Shown piece after piece: positions 22,911-28,342 of a DNA stretch of 64,000 nt. Each line of letters starts with the position of its first letter. The first letter of the stretch is position 1. Origin of the DNA: Pseudomonas sp. St316. Its GTDB lineage: Bacteria; Pseudomonadota; Gammaproteobacteria; Pseudomonadales; Pseudomonadaceae. The position numbers and the translations under genes were made by a program. The stretch spans positions 1,054,001-1,118,000 of the forward strand of contig NZ_AP021901.1 of the NCBI RefSeq assembly GCF_018325905.1, written 5' to 3'. The notes under the pieces were generated by a model. That model had not been told where the DNA came from and did not search any database. It was given only the letters and a program-made list of their open reading frames with translations.

Positions 22911-23684
22911 TCAGCGTTGTCCCTTGATCGGATAGCCGTTTTTCGCCTGGCATGAGCCGATATCGGACGGCAGGGTTTCGGTCGACGAAGGTAGCGGCCA
23001 GAGTGCGGTCATGGACGCAATGGGGAGTGCGATTTCCCGCGGGCGCTCGATCAACTGATTCAGCACATGCCGCGCTGCTTCGTCCGACGACCAGTGCGTC
23101 GGGGTTGGGAAACACTCGTCGGGCCCCCGCAATGGGTCGTCGTAGCCAGGGTGTACCAACGTCACATCGACACCCGCGTACGCCAGGTCCACCCGAGCCG
23201 ATTCGAACAGATGGCGCATCCCGCTGCCACCCGCTTCGGTTTGCGAAGGCGGCAGGTAAGTCGCCGGGCTGGCAATACCCACCAGATGAGGTTCGGTCCC
23301 GGCGCGCAACAAGGGCGCGGCCACTTCGATACAGAAACTGGCAGCCAGCAGATTGCTGCGCACGATATGCTCGATCAATGTGTGATCAGCCGGCAGCCCA
23401 TCAACGTACTCGGCCGTCCCGGCATTGACGATCACCTGATCCAGGGCGCCCCATTGCCGGGCGATCTGCTCGCCGATCTCGCGCACGGCCTGGCTGTCGG
23501 TCAAATTGCCGGGCACGGTCAGCAATTGCCCCGGATAACGTGCCGAAAGGGTTTCGCACGCTCGGGCCGAGCGCGAACTGACGGCCAGGTGTGCCCCCGT
23601 CGCCAGTATCGCTTCAGCCAACGAAGCGCCGATTCCGTTGCCAGCCCCGGTGAGCCAATAGCGCCGTGGCAGTCTTGGACCCAT
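22911..23684 (-). CDS. Short-chain dehydrogenase/reductase-like protein
   Basis: A 257-residue Rossmann protein with the NAD(P) loop TGAGNGIG (about residues 12-19) and the NAG motif (VNAGTAEY, about residue 90). The usual catalytic YxxxK is not visible where expected: after IASPATYLPPSQTE the chain reads GGSGMRHLFESARVDLAY, with Gly/Arg in place of Tyr/Lys. It may therefore bind a nucleotide without classical SDR chemistry. It lies downstream of phrB on the same strand (123-base gap) and probably belongs to the light-response cassette; SDR genes accompany phr in other pseudomonads. Confidence 0.8.
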   Translation of the reverse strand: MGPRLPRRYWLTGAGNGIGASLAEAILATGAHLAVSSRSARACETLSARYPGQLLTVPGNLTDSQAVREIGEQIARQWGALDQVIVNAGTAEYVDGLPADHTLIEHIVRSNLLAASFCIEVAAPLLRAGTEPHLVGIASPATYLPPSQTEAGGSGMRHLFESARVDLAYAGVDVTLVHPGYDDPLRGPDECFPTPTHWSSDEAARHVLNQLIERPREIALPIASMTALWPLPSSTETLPSDIGSCQAKNGYPIKGQR

Positions 23685-23807
23685 TCTCTACTCCTTTCGA
23701 TTGGACAGCGCACTGATACGTGGCTTTTCAGTAGCGTCCGTACGATTAGTAAGACTATATGTCATCGGCTAAACAATGCATCTCGCAGGCTGGCAATTTC
23801 ATGTTCG

Positions 23808-25259
23808 CTAATCGCCCATCCCTTCAACGGCTGCGTCCTGTCGCGCTGGCAGGTTTCTGAATGCTGCCAGCGCACGCGCCCTGGATTGGCTCAAGTCGAC
23901 AATCGGTGCCGGATAATCCACGGCGCCAAACAAGCCGCCCTGGGTATTTGGATTGTGGACCTGTTGCCTGTCCAGATCGTTCAGTTCAGGTAACCAGCGC
24001 TTGATGAACAAACCCTCGCGGTCAAATTTTTCCGACTGGCTCAACGGGTTGAAGATGCGAAACCAAGGCGCCGAATCGGTGCCGGTGGAGGCGCTCCACT
24101 GCCAGCCACCATTGTTGGCGGCCAGGTCGCCGTCGATCAGGTGCTGCATGAAAAAGCGCTCGCCTTCGCGCCAATCGATCAACAGGTTCTTGGTCAGGAA
24201 CATGGCGACGACCATCCGCAAACGGTTGTGCATCCAACCGGTCTCCAGCAATTGACGCATGGCCGCATCGATAATCGGCAGGCCGGTGCGTGCCTGCTTC
24301 CAGGCTTGCAGTTCAGCGGGGGCCTTGCGCCAGGCCAGCGCCTCGGTTTCGGGGCGAAACGCACGATGGCGCGACACGCGTGGATAGCCCACTAGAATGT
24401 GTTTATAAAACTCGCGCCAGAGCAATTCATTGATCCAGGTCACAGCGCCGGCACTTCCGCTCTCGAATTCACCTTGGTTGGATTGCAGGGCGGCGTGCAG
24501 GCACTGACGCGGCGACACCACCCCTGCCACCAGATAGGCCGATAGCTGGCTGGTGCCGGGCCTGGCGGGATAATCCCGTTCGCCTTGGTAATCGTCGATG
24601 TGCTGCTCGACAAAGGTGTCCAGGCGCCGACGGACTTCGGTCTCCCCGGCGGGCCAGAGGGCGCGTAGCGCTTCGCTGGGCGGGGCGAACCCGTCGACTT
24701 GCGTCGGCACCGGGTCGCGGGCAATGCCGGTGGGGGCCTGCCGGGCCGGCGTGGCGACCAGACTCGGCAATGAAAAGTGCAGGCGGCTATAGCAGACCTT
24801 GCGGAACTGACTGAACACTTGGAAGTAATTGCCGGTCTTGGTCAGCACGCTACCGGGCTTGAACAACAATTGATCGAGGTGGCTGTGAAATTCAACGCCC
24901 TGGTCATTCAACGCGCGGGCGACTTCGGCGTCGCGTCGGGTTTCATTCAGGCCGTACTCTTCGTTGACATGCACGGCACCGACGTTCAGTTCGCGACACA
25001 GCTTGAGCAGTACCTGCGGGGCTTGGTGCCAATGCGCTGCGGCGCGGATCAGCAGTGGGACGTTCAATTCGGCCAGGGCCGCACTTAACGCGGCGAGGTT
25101 GCGCAGCCAGAAATCGATCTTGCACGGTGCGTCGTCATGGGCGCGCCATTGTTCGGGGCAGGTCAAGTACACCGCCACGCAGGGTCCTTGGGCTGCAGCC
25201 GCTGCAAGGGCGGTATTGTCGTGCAGGCGCAAGTCGCTGCGCAGCCAGATAAGTTGCAT
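23808..25259 (-). CDS. phrB: Deoxyribodipyrimidine photolyase (CPD photolyase)
   Basis: Repairs cyclobutane pyrimidine dimers using blue light through FAD and an antenna cofactor. It has 483 residues. The N-terminal alpha/beta antenna domain starts MQLIWLRSDLRLHDN. The C-terminal FAD domain has the class I signature: WMHNRLRMVVAMFL, then GDLAANNGGWQW and ASTGTDSAPWFRIFNP. I use ATG 25259; ATG 25271, four codons earlier, is possible but overlaps the stop of the upstream MerR gene. It follows that gene by 12 bases and should share its transcript. Confidence 0.96.
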   Translation of the reverse strand: MQLIWLRSDLRLHDNTALAAAAAQGPCVAVYLTCPEQWRAHDDAPCKIDFWLRNLAALSAALAELNVPLLIRAAAHWHQAPQVLLKLCRELNVGAVHVNEEYGLNETRRDAEVARALNDQGVEFHSHLDQLLFKPGSVLTKTGNYFQVFSQFRKVCYSRLHFSLPSLVATPARQAPTGIARDPVPTQVDGFAPPSEALRALWPAGETEVRRRLDTFVEQHIDDYQGERDYPARPGTSQLSAYLVAGVVSPRQCLHAALQSNQGEFESGSAGAVTWINELLWREFYKHILVGYPRVSRHRAFRPETEALAWRKAPAELQAWKQARTGLPIIDAAMRQLLETGWMHNRLRMVVAMFLTKNLLIDWREGERFFMQHLIDGDLAANNGGWQWSASTGTDSAPWFRIFNPLSQSEKFDREGLFIKRWLPELNDLDRQQVHNPNTQGGLFGAVDYPAPIVDLSQSRARALAAFRNLPARQDAAVEGMGD

Positions 25260-25271
25260 GCTGTCTTCCAT

Positions 25272-27230: not shown

Positions 27231-27308
27231 TATTTTCATCATAGGTCCGAACGTGCACAAGTCAACCGGATTTGTAGGGTGAGGTAACGTCAATCTCTGT
27301 CGCAGGCA

Positions 27309-27333
27309 GGCTGCTGTCTCTTTCGACAGCAGC
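27309..27333 (-). other. Stem-loop downstream of renalase-like gene
   Basis: GCTGCTGTC pairs with GACAGCAGC around a short loop, about 25-45 bases past the renalase-like stop. No T-tract follows on the minus strand, so termination here is uncertain. Confidence 0.45.
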
Positions 27334-27355
27334 GGATGGCGATGTGTGGCGCGCT

Positions 27356-28342
27356 TTACTGCAGGCTTGCATGCAGGCGGCGTGCAGCCTCCTGGCCGCT
27401 GAGCCATGCACCTTCGACCCGGCCGGACAGGCACCAGTCGCCGCACACATACAGGCCCAGGTCGGCATCGGCCAGGGCGCCCCATTCATGGTTGCCGGCG
27501 GGGCGGGCGTACAGCCAGCGATGGGCGACGCTGAAGCTCGGTGCGGGCATCGCGCTGTGCAGCAGTTCGGCGAAGGCGCCGTGCAGATGTTCGATCACCG
27601 CTTCCTTGGGCAGGTCGATGTGCTGCCGGCTCCAGTCGCTGGTGGCGTGCAGTACCCAGGTGTCGAGCGTGTTGTCGCGTCCCGGCTTGCTGCGGTTGCG
27701 CGCCAGCCAGTCCAGGGCACTGTCCTGTACGAAGCAGCCTTCCATGGGTGTATCCAGCGGAGTTTCGAAGCCCAGCGCCACGGCCCAGGTCGGGTCCATC
27801 TTCACGCCGGCGGCCACGGCGGCCAGCTTCGGTACGGCCGCCAGCAATGCGGTAGCCTGGGGCGCGGGCGTGGCGATCACCACTTGGCCGAAGGGGCCAT
27901 GGGTGAACCCTTCCGCGTCCTGCAGATGCCAATGCTCCTGGCCGCGGTAGACCTCGGTGATCCGGCAGGAAAACTGCACCTGCAACTTGTCGAGCAAGGC
28001 GCGGGTGATGGCGCTCATGCGCGGGGTGCCGACCCAGCGGGTCTGTTCGTCCGGCGATGGGCTCAGTTGTCCGTTCTGGAAGTTGTAGAGTTGCGGGTTC
28101 CATTCCGCCGCCCAGCCGTTGGCTTGCCAGCGCTGGACTTCCGTGACAAAGCGGCGATCGCGGGCGGTGAAGTACTGCGCGCCCATGTCCAATGCGCCGG
28201 CTTCGCTGCGTTTGCTCGACATGCGTCCGCCGCTGCCGTGGCTTTTATCGAAGAGTTGAACGATATGCCCGGCCTCCGTCAGGGCCTGGGCGGCTGAAAG
28301 TCCGGCGATGCCGGTGCCGATGATTGCGATAGGTACAGTCAT
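27356..28342 (-). CDS. Renalase-family FAD-dependent dihydro-NAD(P) oxidase
   Basis: A 328-residue flavoprotein beginning [20 protein letters not shown], a dinucleotide-binding loop, followed by [15 protein letters not shown] and the C-terminal FAD-contact region [19 protein letters not shown]. It closely resembles the P. syringae pv. phaseolicola protein characterised as a bacterial renalase, which oxidises the off-pathway 2- and 6-dihydro forms of NAD(P). That assignment is from remembered sequence. ATG 28342 was chosen because the upstream extension shows no family features. Its promoter region carries TGTACA motifs like those before rudS, so it is probably part of the same regulon. Confidence 0.9.

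Follow-up and report, generated by a model that had tools for sequence, protein, structure and literature searches.

A shortened, probably light-controlled LitR operon in Pseudomonas sp. St316 with a renalase neighbour and an orphan gene of the dehydrogenase/reductase family

Gene content and layout of the locus

In a stretch of 64,000 nucleotides from Pseudomonas sp. St316 (hereafter the window; G000:C1:1054001-1118000 of a 6.78-Mb genome in a single contig) we studied five genes centred on a MerR-family regulator. All of them lie on the minus strand. In the order of transcription they encode a bacterial renalase (27356..28342), the TudS-DUF1722 tRNA 4-thiouridine (s4U) desulfidase RudS (26219..27181), the regulator itself, a class II LitR similar to PplR1/PmlR1 (25272..26219), the class I cyclobutane pyrimidine dimer photolyase PhrB (23808..25259) and an orphan short-chain dehydrogenase/reductase (SDR; 22911..23684). 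The rudS and litR frames share one base (position 26219), and 12 bases separate litR from phrB. The original prediction, made from the sequence alone, had described the same genes, with the SDR downstream on the same strand and renalase upstream, and had both distances right. A tree of rudS, hemH and phrB places the window closest, among named relatives, to P. brassicacearum and P. kilonensis.

To describe conservation we used a near set, which comprises the best 80 of 265 named Pseudomonas loci retrieved with RudS, and a distant set of 40 loci hand-picked from the 138 RudS-matching genomes among 148 sampled from the family (the weakest of these 138 matches cover only part of the protein; L160 and L185 come from one genome). 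The co-location that had been proposed as a check in other pseudomonads was indeed found: rudS, litR and phrB are matched in 80 of 80 near loci, renalase in 79 and the SDR in 79. In the distant set rudS is followed by litR in 33 loci and by phrB in 37, and it is preceded by renalase in 29; some lineages have rudS and phrB without an adjacent litR. The arrangement first described is confirmed: rudS, litR and phrB make up a single unit, renalase lies upstream of it and the SDR downstream. In P. citri (L048:10966-11169) litR appears to be mostly deleted, with a best match to residues 3-44 only; rudS and phrB are retained there, phrB starts about 0.75 kb early and the rudS operator described below has one mismatch.

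Family assignments are firm for RudS, the photolyase, the MerR regulator and renalase. RudS contains the Pfam domains 2-thiour_desulf (PF04463) and DUF1722 (PF08349), which makes it a TudS-DUF1722 fusion, and retains the cluster and catalytic residues Cys16, Cys48, Cys113, Glu50, Arg59, Ser110 and Ser112. RudS_KT (PP_0741, PMC11417400) has the same architecture, with the three cluster cysteines, Glu, Arg and the two serines related to the window protein by a constant offset of -1; its Tyr25 is replaced by Phe24 in the window, and for its tRNA-contacting Ser243/Arg244 the offset of -1 alone would tentatively point to Arg242/Arg243. RudS removes s4U from tRNA both in vivo and in vitro (PMC11417400), and the genome encodes ThiI, which makes s4U. 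The photolyase carries PF00875 and PF03441, scores 536.7 bits as a PRK10674 equivalog (cut-off 506) and matches PDB 1dnp with 438 bits.

Promoter and operator of the rudS operon

Upstream of rudS lies a conserved sigma-70-type promoter, TTGACT-N16-TATGAT (27238..27265, minus strand), with hexamers and spacing identical to those of the mapped P. mendocina promoter P6650 (PMC9758184). It is the sole minus-strand match of a consensus scan between 22800 and 28700. In the interval between this promoter and the rudS ATG we found a predicted LitR operator, TGTACA-N12-TGTACA (27206..27229, minus strand), which agrees exactly with the form reported for P. mendocina and with the published consensus TRTACA-N12-TGTAYA, and which occupies the position of Site 2 in P. 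mendocina (PMC9758184).

With at most one mismatch, the window holds two such operators, the exact one at 27206-27229 and another at 28390-28413 with one mismatch; shuffled windows give an expectation of 0.07, and two were found in 1 of 100 shuffles. In the whole 6.78 Mb there are four exact N12 operators, located at rudS, at a furan-fatty-acid (ufaM) module, at a chi/DUF3833 gene pair and at a chemoreceptor gene. The shuffles and the genome-wide rarity of exact sites lead us to reject a chance origin of the motif. TGTACA by itself is weak evidence (the window has 15 copies, where base composition predicts 8.5). The motif that the original prediction saw shared by the rudS and renalase promoters thus holds up as a spaced, conserved operator and carries little weight as a bare hexamer.

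Of the 80 near loci, 75 have an exact rudS operator and 1 has an operator with one mismatch; the corresponding numbers for the 40 distant loci are 31 and 3. An alignment of 80 sequences revealed conservation of the -35 and -10 hexamers and of the half-sites, while most spacer bases vary. The gene is therefore found behind an operator with at most one mismatch in 76/80 near and 34/40 distant loci, which strengthens the case for a link of tRNA desulfuration to light.

This link is supported, yet it is not new, because it is already in print (PMC11417400, PMC9758184). The Pseudomonas PhrB-LitR-RudS operon has been stated to be under the control of light-responsive LitR (PMC11417400), and light induction of pmlR1, phrB and ufaM has been shown in P. 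mendocina (PMC9758184). The proposed photoprotective role under light control accordingly stands for rudS, litR and phrB, for which it is published, and not for the SDR (see below).

An alternative would be that the genes respond to oxidative or envelope stress in general, with light as one trigger among others. In P. putida, the block PP_0738-PP_0742, of which we take PP_0738 to be the SDR and PP_0742 to be the renalase, rose as a whole in co-culture (PMC11014904). The joint rise counts in favour of a common regulon; that it came at equal illumination, without more light, favours the broader regulon and counts against a purely light-driven one. On the other side, the operator is that of LitR, and in P. 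mendocina blue light raises phrB 26.7-33.2 fold and pmlR1 5.7-10.1 fold (PMC9758184). We regard a general stress regulon as unlikely.

Renalase and its operator

The renalase gene product aligns with the solved bacterial renalases (PDB 4zcc, 4zcd, 5krq) over residues 1-327, with 602 bits (601.8) for 4zcc, and is thus a full-length member of the family. Upstream of its gene we found the predicted LitR operator TATACC-N12-TGTACA (28390..28413, minus strand) and an extra TGTACA half-site (28363..28368, minus strand), which starts 26 bases 5′ of the ATG.

The operator has one mismatch in 78/78 near loci examined (2 of the 80 lack the upstream region). Since near loci also have much of the spacer in common, the distant set weighs more. 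Among the 29 distant loci with renalase before rudS, the operator is exact in 17 and has one mismatch in 5, where the chance expectation for at most one mismatch is about 0.0007 per 250 bases.

The operator sits between two divergent genes, so it might instead serve the yfcH-hemH side. The distances argue otherwise: while the intergenic length ranges from 126 to 407 bases, the operator starts 64-79 bases 5′ of the renalase ATG in 20 of 22 loci, and its distance to yfcH varies between 52 and 334. This near-constant spacing indicates that the site belongs to renalase, and we consider an assignment to yfcH-hemH improbable.

Because the spaced operator is real and conserved across genera, renalase makes a good regulon member, and it is likely, judging from these sites, that LitR controls it as a conserved part of the regulon. 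Among the new proposals made here, this is the strongest. Enzymes of the renalase family are oxidases of 2-/6-dihydro-NAD(P). More tentatively, renalase might be light-regulated across Pseudomonadaceae and might clear nicotinamide isomers that excited flavins or porphyrins produce in the light; the regulon would then mend DNA, tRNA and NAD(P)H. No statement on light control of renalase was found in the literature searched, a search that did not extend to the P. putida light study. The latter reportedly lists 19 light-induced genes.

The terminal SDR

The window SDR keeps an NAD site of the TGxxxGxG type, the NAG motif and the catalytic Ser, but has Gly in place of the catalytic Tyr and a gap in place of Lys, so the Ser-Tyr-Lys triad is incomplete. 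The genome carries a furan-fatty-acid module at 3.04 Mb (within L032:10017-17703), with genes for an NTF2-like protein, an SDR, an FAD oxidoreductase, DUF1365, UfaM and DUF2878, behind LitR operators of its own.

We compared SDR genes with and without an adjoining module in 121 loci (80 near, 40 distant and the window). The module and the SDR occur together in 54 loci, and Tyr and Lys are intact in all 54. In 44 loci the SDR stands without the module; here Tyr is lost in 36, of which 21 have also lost Lys, and both residues are kept in 8. The remaining 23 loci lack an SDR, and in one of these the module is present. In L044, L052 and L067 the absence of the module is not established, because the contig ends at most 0.6 kb past the SDR; without these loci Tyr is lost in 33/41. 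On an 80-row tree the history of the module requires at least 10 changes, 9 of them forced by supported branches. In about 7.2 of 9 independent pairs the catalytic residues were lost along with the module, and the reverse was never seen (median sign-test p 0.016).

Some of the 44 orphan loci still show deletion scars. The end of the NTF2-like gene precedes the SDR in 9, and the FAD oxidoreductase gene follows it nearly whole in 2 and with its first part in 1. The window's own clade, with 19 loci, shows none, so the module-loss history of this clade is derived from its relatives. A ufaM gene (at least 67% identity) is present elsewhere in 17 of the 41 orphan genomes searched (41 of 43 named ones; L044 and L067 were left out).

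The orphan frame is open in 44/44 loci, with 236-261 amino acids. The median ratio of nonsynonymous to synonymous substitution rates (dN/dS, omega), with pairs of dS outside 0.05-0.9 excluded, is 0.244 for orphan SDRs of the window clade, 0.178 for other orphans and 0.077 for SDRs with the module; for phrB it is about 0.11 in all groups. The closest pairs have higher ratios (dN/dS 0.054/0.152 for the window and L039, 0.075/0.149 for the window and L040). A freely decaying pseudogene is rejected by the median omega of 0.244, the closest pairs being higher, and by the lack of any frame shorter than 236 amino acids.

Could the SDR be an active dehydrogenase that serves the photoprotection set? 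The open frames, the purifying selection and the 8 of 44 orphans that keep Tyr and Lys speak for it. However, the window protein has neither residue, Tyr is lost in most orphans while module SDRs all retain the pair, the loss follows that of the module in about seven of nine comparisons, and omega is three times that of module SDRs, which makes an active enzyme very unlikely. The window SDR is best read, from its sequence and that of its relatives, as a pseudoenzyme whose constraint is relaxed but still real, and it looks like a leftover of the repeated loss of the furan-fatty-acid module. Its inclusion in the photoprotection set by the original prediction could not be upheld.

The regulator and its putative light sensor

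A Pfam scan of the regulator found MerR and B12-binding_2 (PF02607) and did not find the B12-binding Rossmann domain. The MerR and helical domains align with Thermus CarH/LitR (5c8d, 3whp), so that by sequence the MerR and B12-binding_2-like helical parts are common to both. The B12-ligating histidines of CarH, which we take to be His132 and His177 in its numbering, face a gap and Gln in the alignment with 5c8d. Unlike CarH, the window LitR thus has neither a match to the Rossmann domain nor the ligand histidines. The label LitR/CarH-like that it had been given is apt as to ancestry and fails as to B12 sensing.

Class II LitR has been reported to be B12-independent, and B12 is not required in P. 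putida (PMC9758184). That the local LitR is itself the photosensor through adenosyl-B12, as in CarH, is suggested by the shared domains and by PMC11417400, which calls these regulators adenosyl-B12-dependent, but with the Rossmann domain and the ligand histidines missing and B12 dispensable in P. putida, we reject this as highly unlikely. Since class II LitR is reported to act without B12, light is most likely sensed by a separate protein of the short-LOV type; in P. mendocina, such a protein takes the LitR paralogue PmlR2 off the DNA in blue light (PMC9758184). Sequence features thus make the window regulator a class II LitR, which is probably switched through a separate short-LOV protein.

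Candidates for the partners lie just past the right end of the window, where we found folE, a folM-like SDR gene, a second litR and a short-LOV gene (L037:1951-6784). The gene that spans the window end itself (63951-64000) is presumably folX-like, judging from its position. The second LitR (G000:C1:1120639-1121598), 2.6 kb past the window, is a match of 37% identity. The short LOV (G000:C1:1122290-1122763; L037:6290-6763), 4.3 kb past the window, carries the photoactive Cys in a DCRFLQ motif, and its best PDB matches are 7yx0 and 7r5n.

Among the sampled genomes of the family, 93 have both genes, and the short LOV lies at most 10 kb from rudS in 21 of them; random placement on a 5-Mb chromosome would yield about 0.4%. 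These 21 belong to six genera, with 13 in one genus, and in G144 the partner is a match to the DUF1722 part only. LOV and rudS share a contig in 60 genomes; besides the close pairs, their distance is 26-104 kb in 30 of these and larger in 9. Both LOV and the second LitR are near rudS in L144, L145 and L152-L154. This proximity links the sensor with the rudS operon by evidence other than the operator motif. As a test, co-occurrence of LOV and RudS over the 148 genomes is not strict enough.

Other LitR sites and neighbouring genes

Besides the relocated furan-fatty-acid module, the chi/DUF3833 pair in L032:10017-17703 also lies behind LitR operators, and an old-yellow-enzyme gene adjoins it. A gene for a PAS-PAS-MCP chemoreceptor (G000:C1:4257700-4259031; L033:5700-7031, minus strand) is preceded by an exact LitR operator at -120 and by another half-site pair at -413. 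Its orthologues (at least 75% identity) occur in 8 of 17 named close relatives, and in all nine genomes, our own included, at least one exact N12 operator is found within 500 bases, with altered spacers; weaker homologues have an exact site in 1 of 21. The protein is, by these sites, a candidate light-controlled taxis receptor. A TGTACA-N13-TGTACA pair (L033:7420-7444) lies upstream of a divergent gene for a sigma-54 activator and may serve either gene.

On the far side of the operon, a gene for a PagL-type lipid A deacylase (window 21892-22458) has the same placement in 76/80 near loci. An Rfam scan returned one tRNA only.

Discussion

Taken together, the locus appears to be a shortened version of the known blue-light operon that class II LitR controls in Pseudomonas, with renalase under the same switch and the SDR as a leftover; we put the probability of this reading at about 0.85. 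It draws on what was observed here, namely gene identities, promoter and operator sequences with their conservation, the sensor genes and the pattern of module loss. Light induction, the LOV-LitR mechanism and the chemistry of RudS were shown by others in related species and would extend to this strain by analogy.

The closest known systems are P. mendocina PME6650-PME6610 (PMC9758184) and the pplR1 region of P. putida KT2440, which have the same class II LitR, phrB, promoter hexamers and spacing, and operator. PME6650, termed hypothetical in PMC9758184, is the first gene and takes the position of rudS. In contrast to both, the window locus lacks the module and has only the degenerate SDR, the module being at 3.04 Mb with operators of its own. 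The core is a further, shortened member of this known light operon, and the central inference on desulfuration and light has already been published.

In the dark, the local LitR, probably together with the second one, would sit on TRTACA-N12-TGTAYA operators and block the promoter of rudS-litR-phrB and, via a separate operator, that of renalase. Blue light would activate the short-LOV flavoprotein, which would take LitR off the DNA and turn the genes on. PhrB would then repair UV dimers, RudS would free tRNA of its near-UV chromophore, s4U, and renalase would oxidise aberrant dihydro-NAD(P) isomers. The terminal SDR would be what remains of a furan-fatty-acid module formerly in the same operon and now at 3.04 Mb. 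We infer that the scheme holds in this strain, as we do the light control and the purpose of renalase.

Several observations weigh against this reading. The promoter consensus scan alone is not significant (2 matches on both strands against 1.6 expected), and Site 1, which lies over the -35 box and is present in most relatives outside the window's clade, is degenerate in the window (TGTGCA in the half that overlaps the -35). The rudS operator is absent within two mismatches in 4/80 near loci and within one mismatch in 6/40 distant loci, and the renalase operator is absent within two mismatches in 7/29 distant loci. The folM-like gene has one TGTACA half-site only. LOV and RudS also do not go strictly together: among the 148 genomes, a short LOV without a RudS match occurs in G058, G066, G104 and G118, and RudS without a LOV match at the threshold used occurs in several more, G005, G012, G013 and G017 among them.

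The new elements are the likely conserved place of renalase in the regulon, the orphan SDR and a chemoreceptor gene with LitR sites. The SDR case suggests that an operon can retain one gene as a pseudoenzyme after the loss of a metabolic module, and it cautions against deducing function solely from gene neighbours. Should the renalase operator be functional, bacterial renalase would gain a physiological setting that is unstated in the literature searched, and NAD(P)H damage would become a third light target under the same switch.

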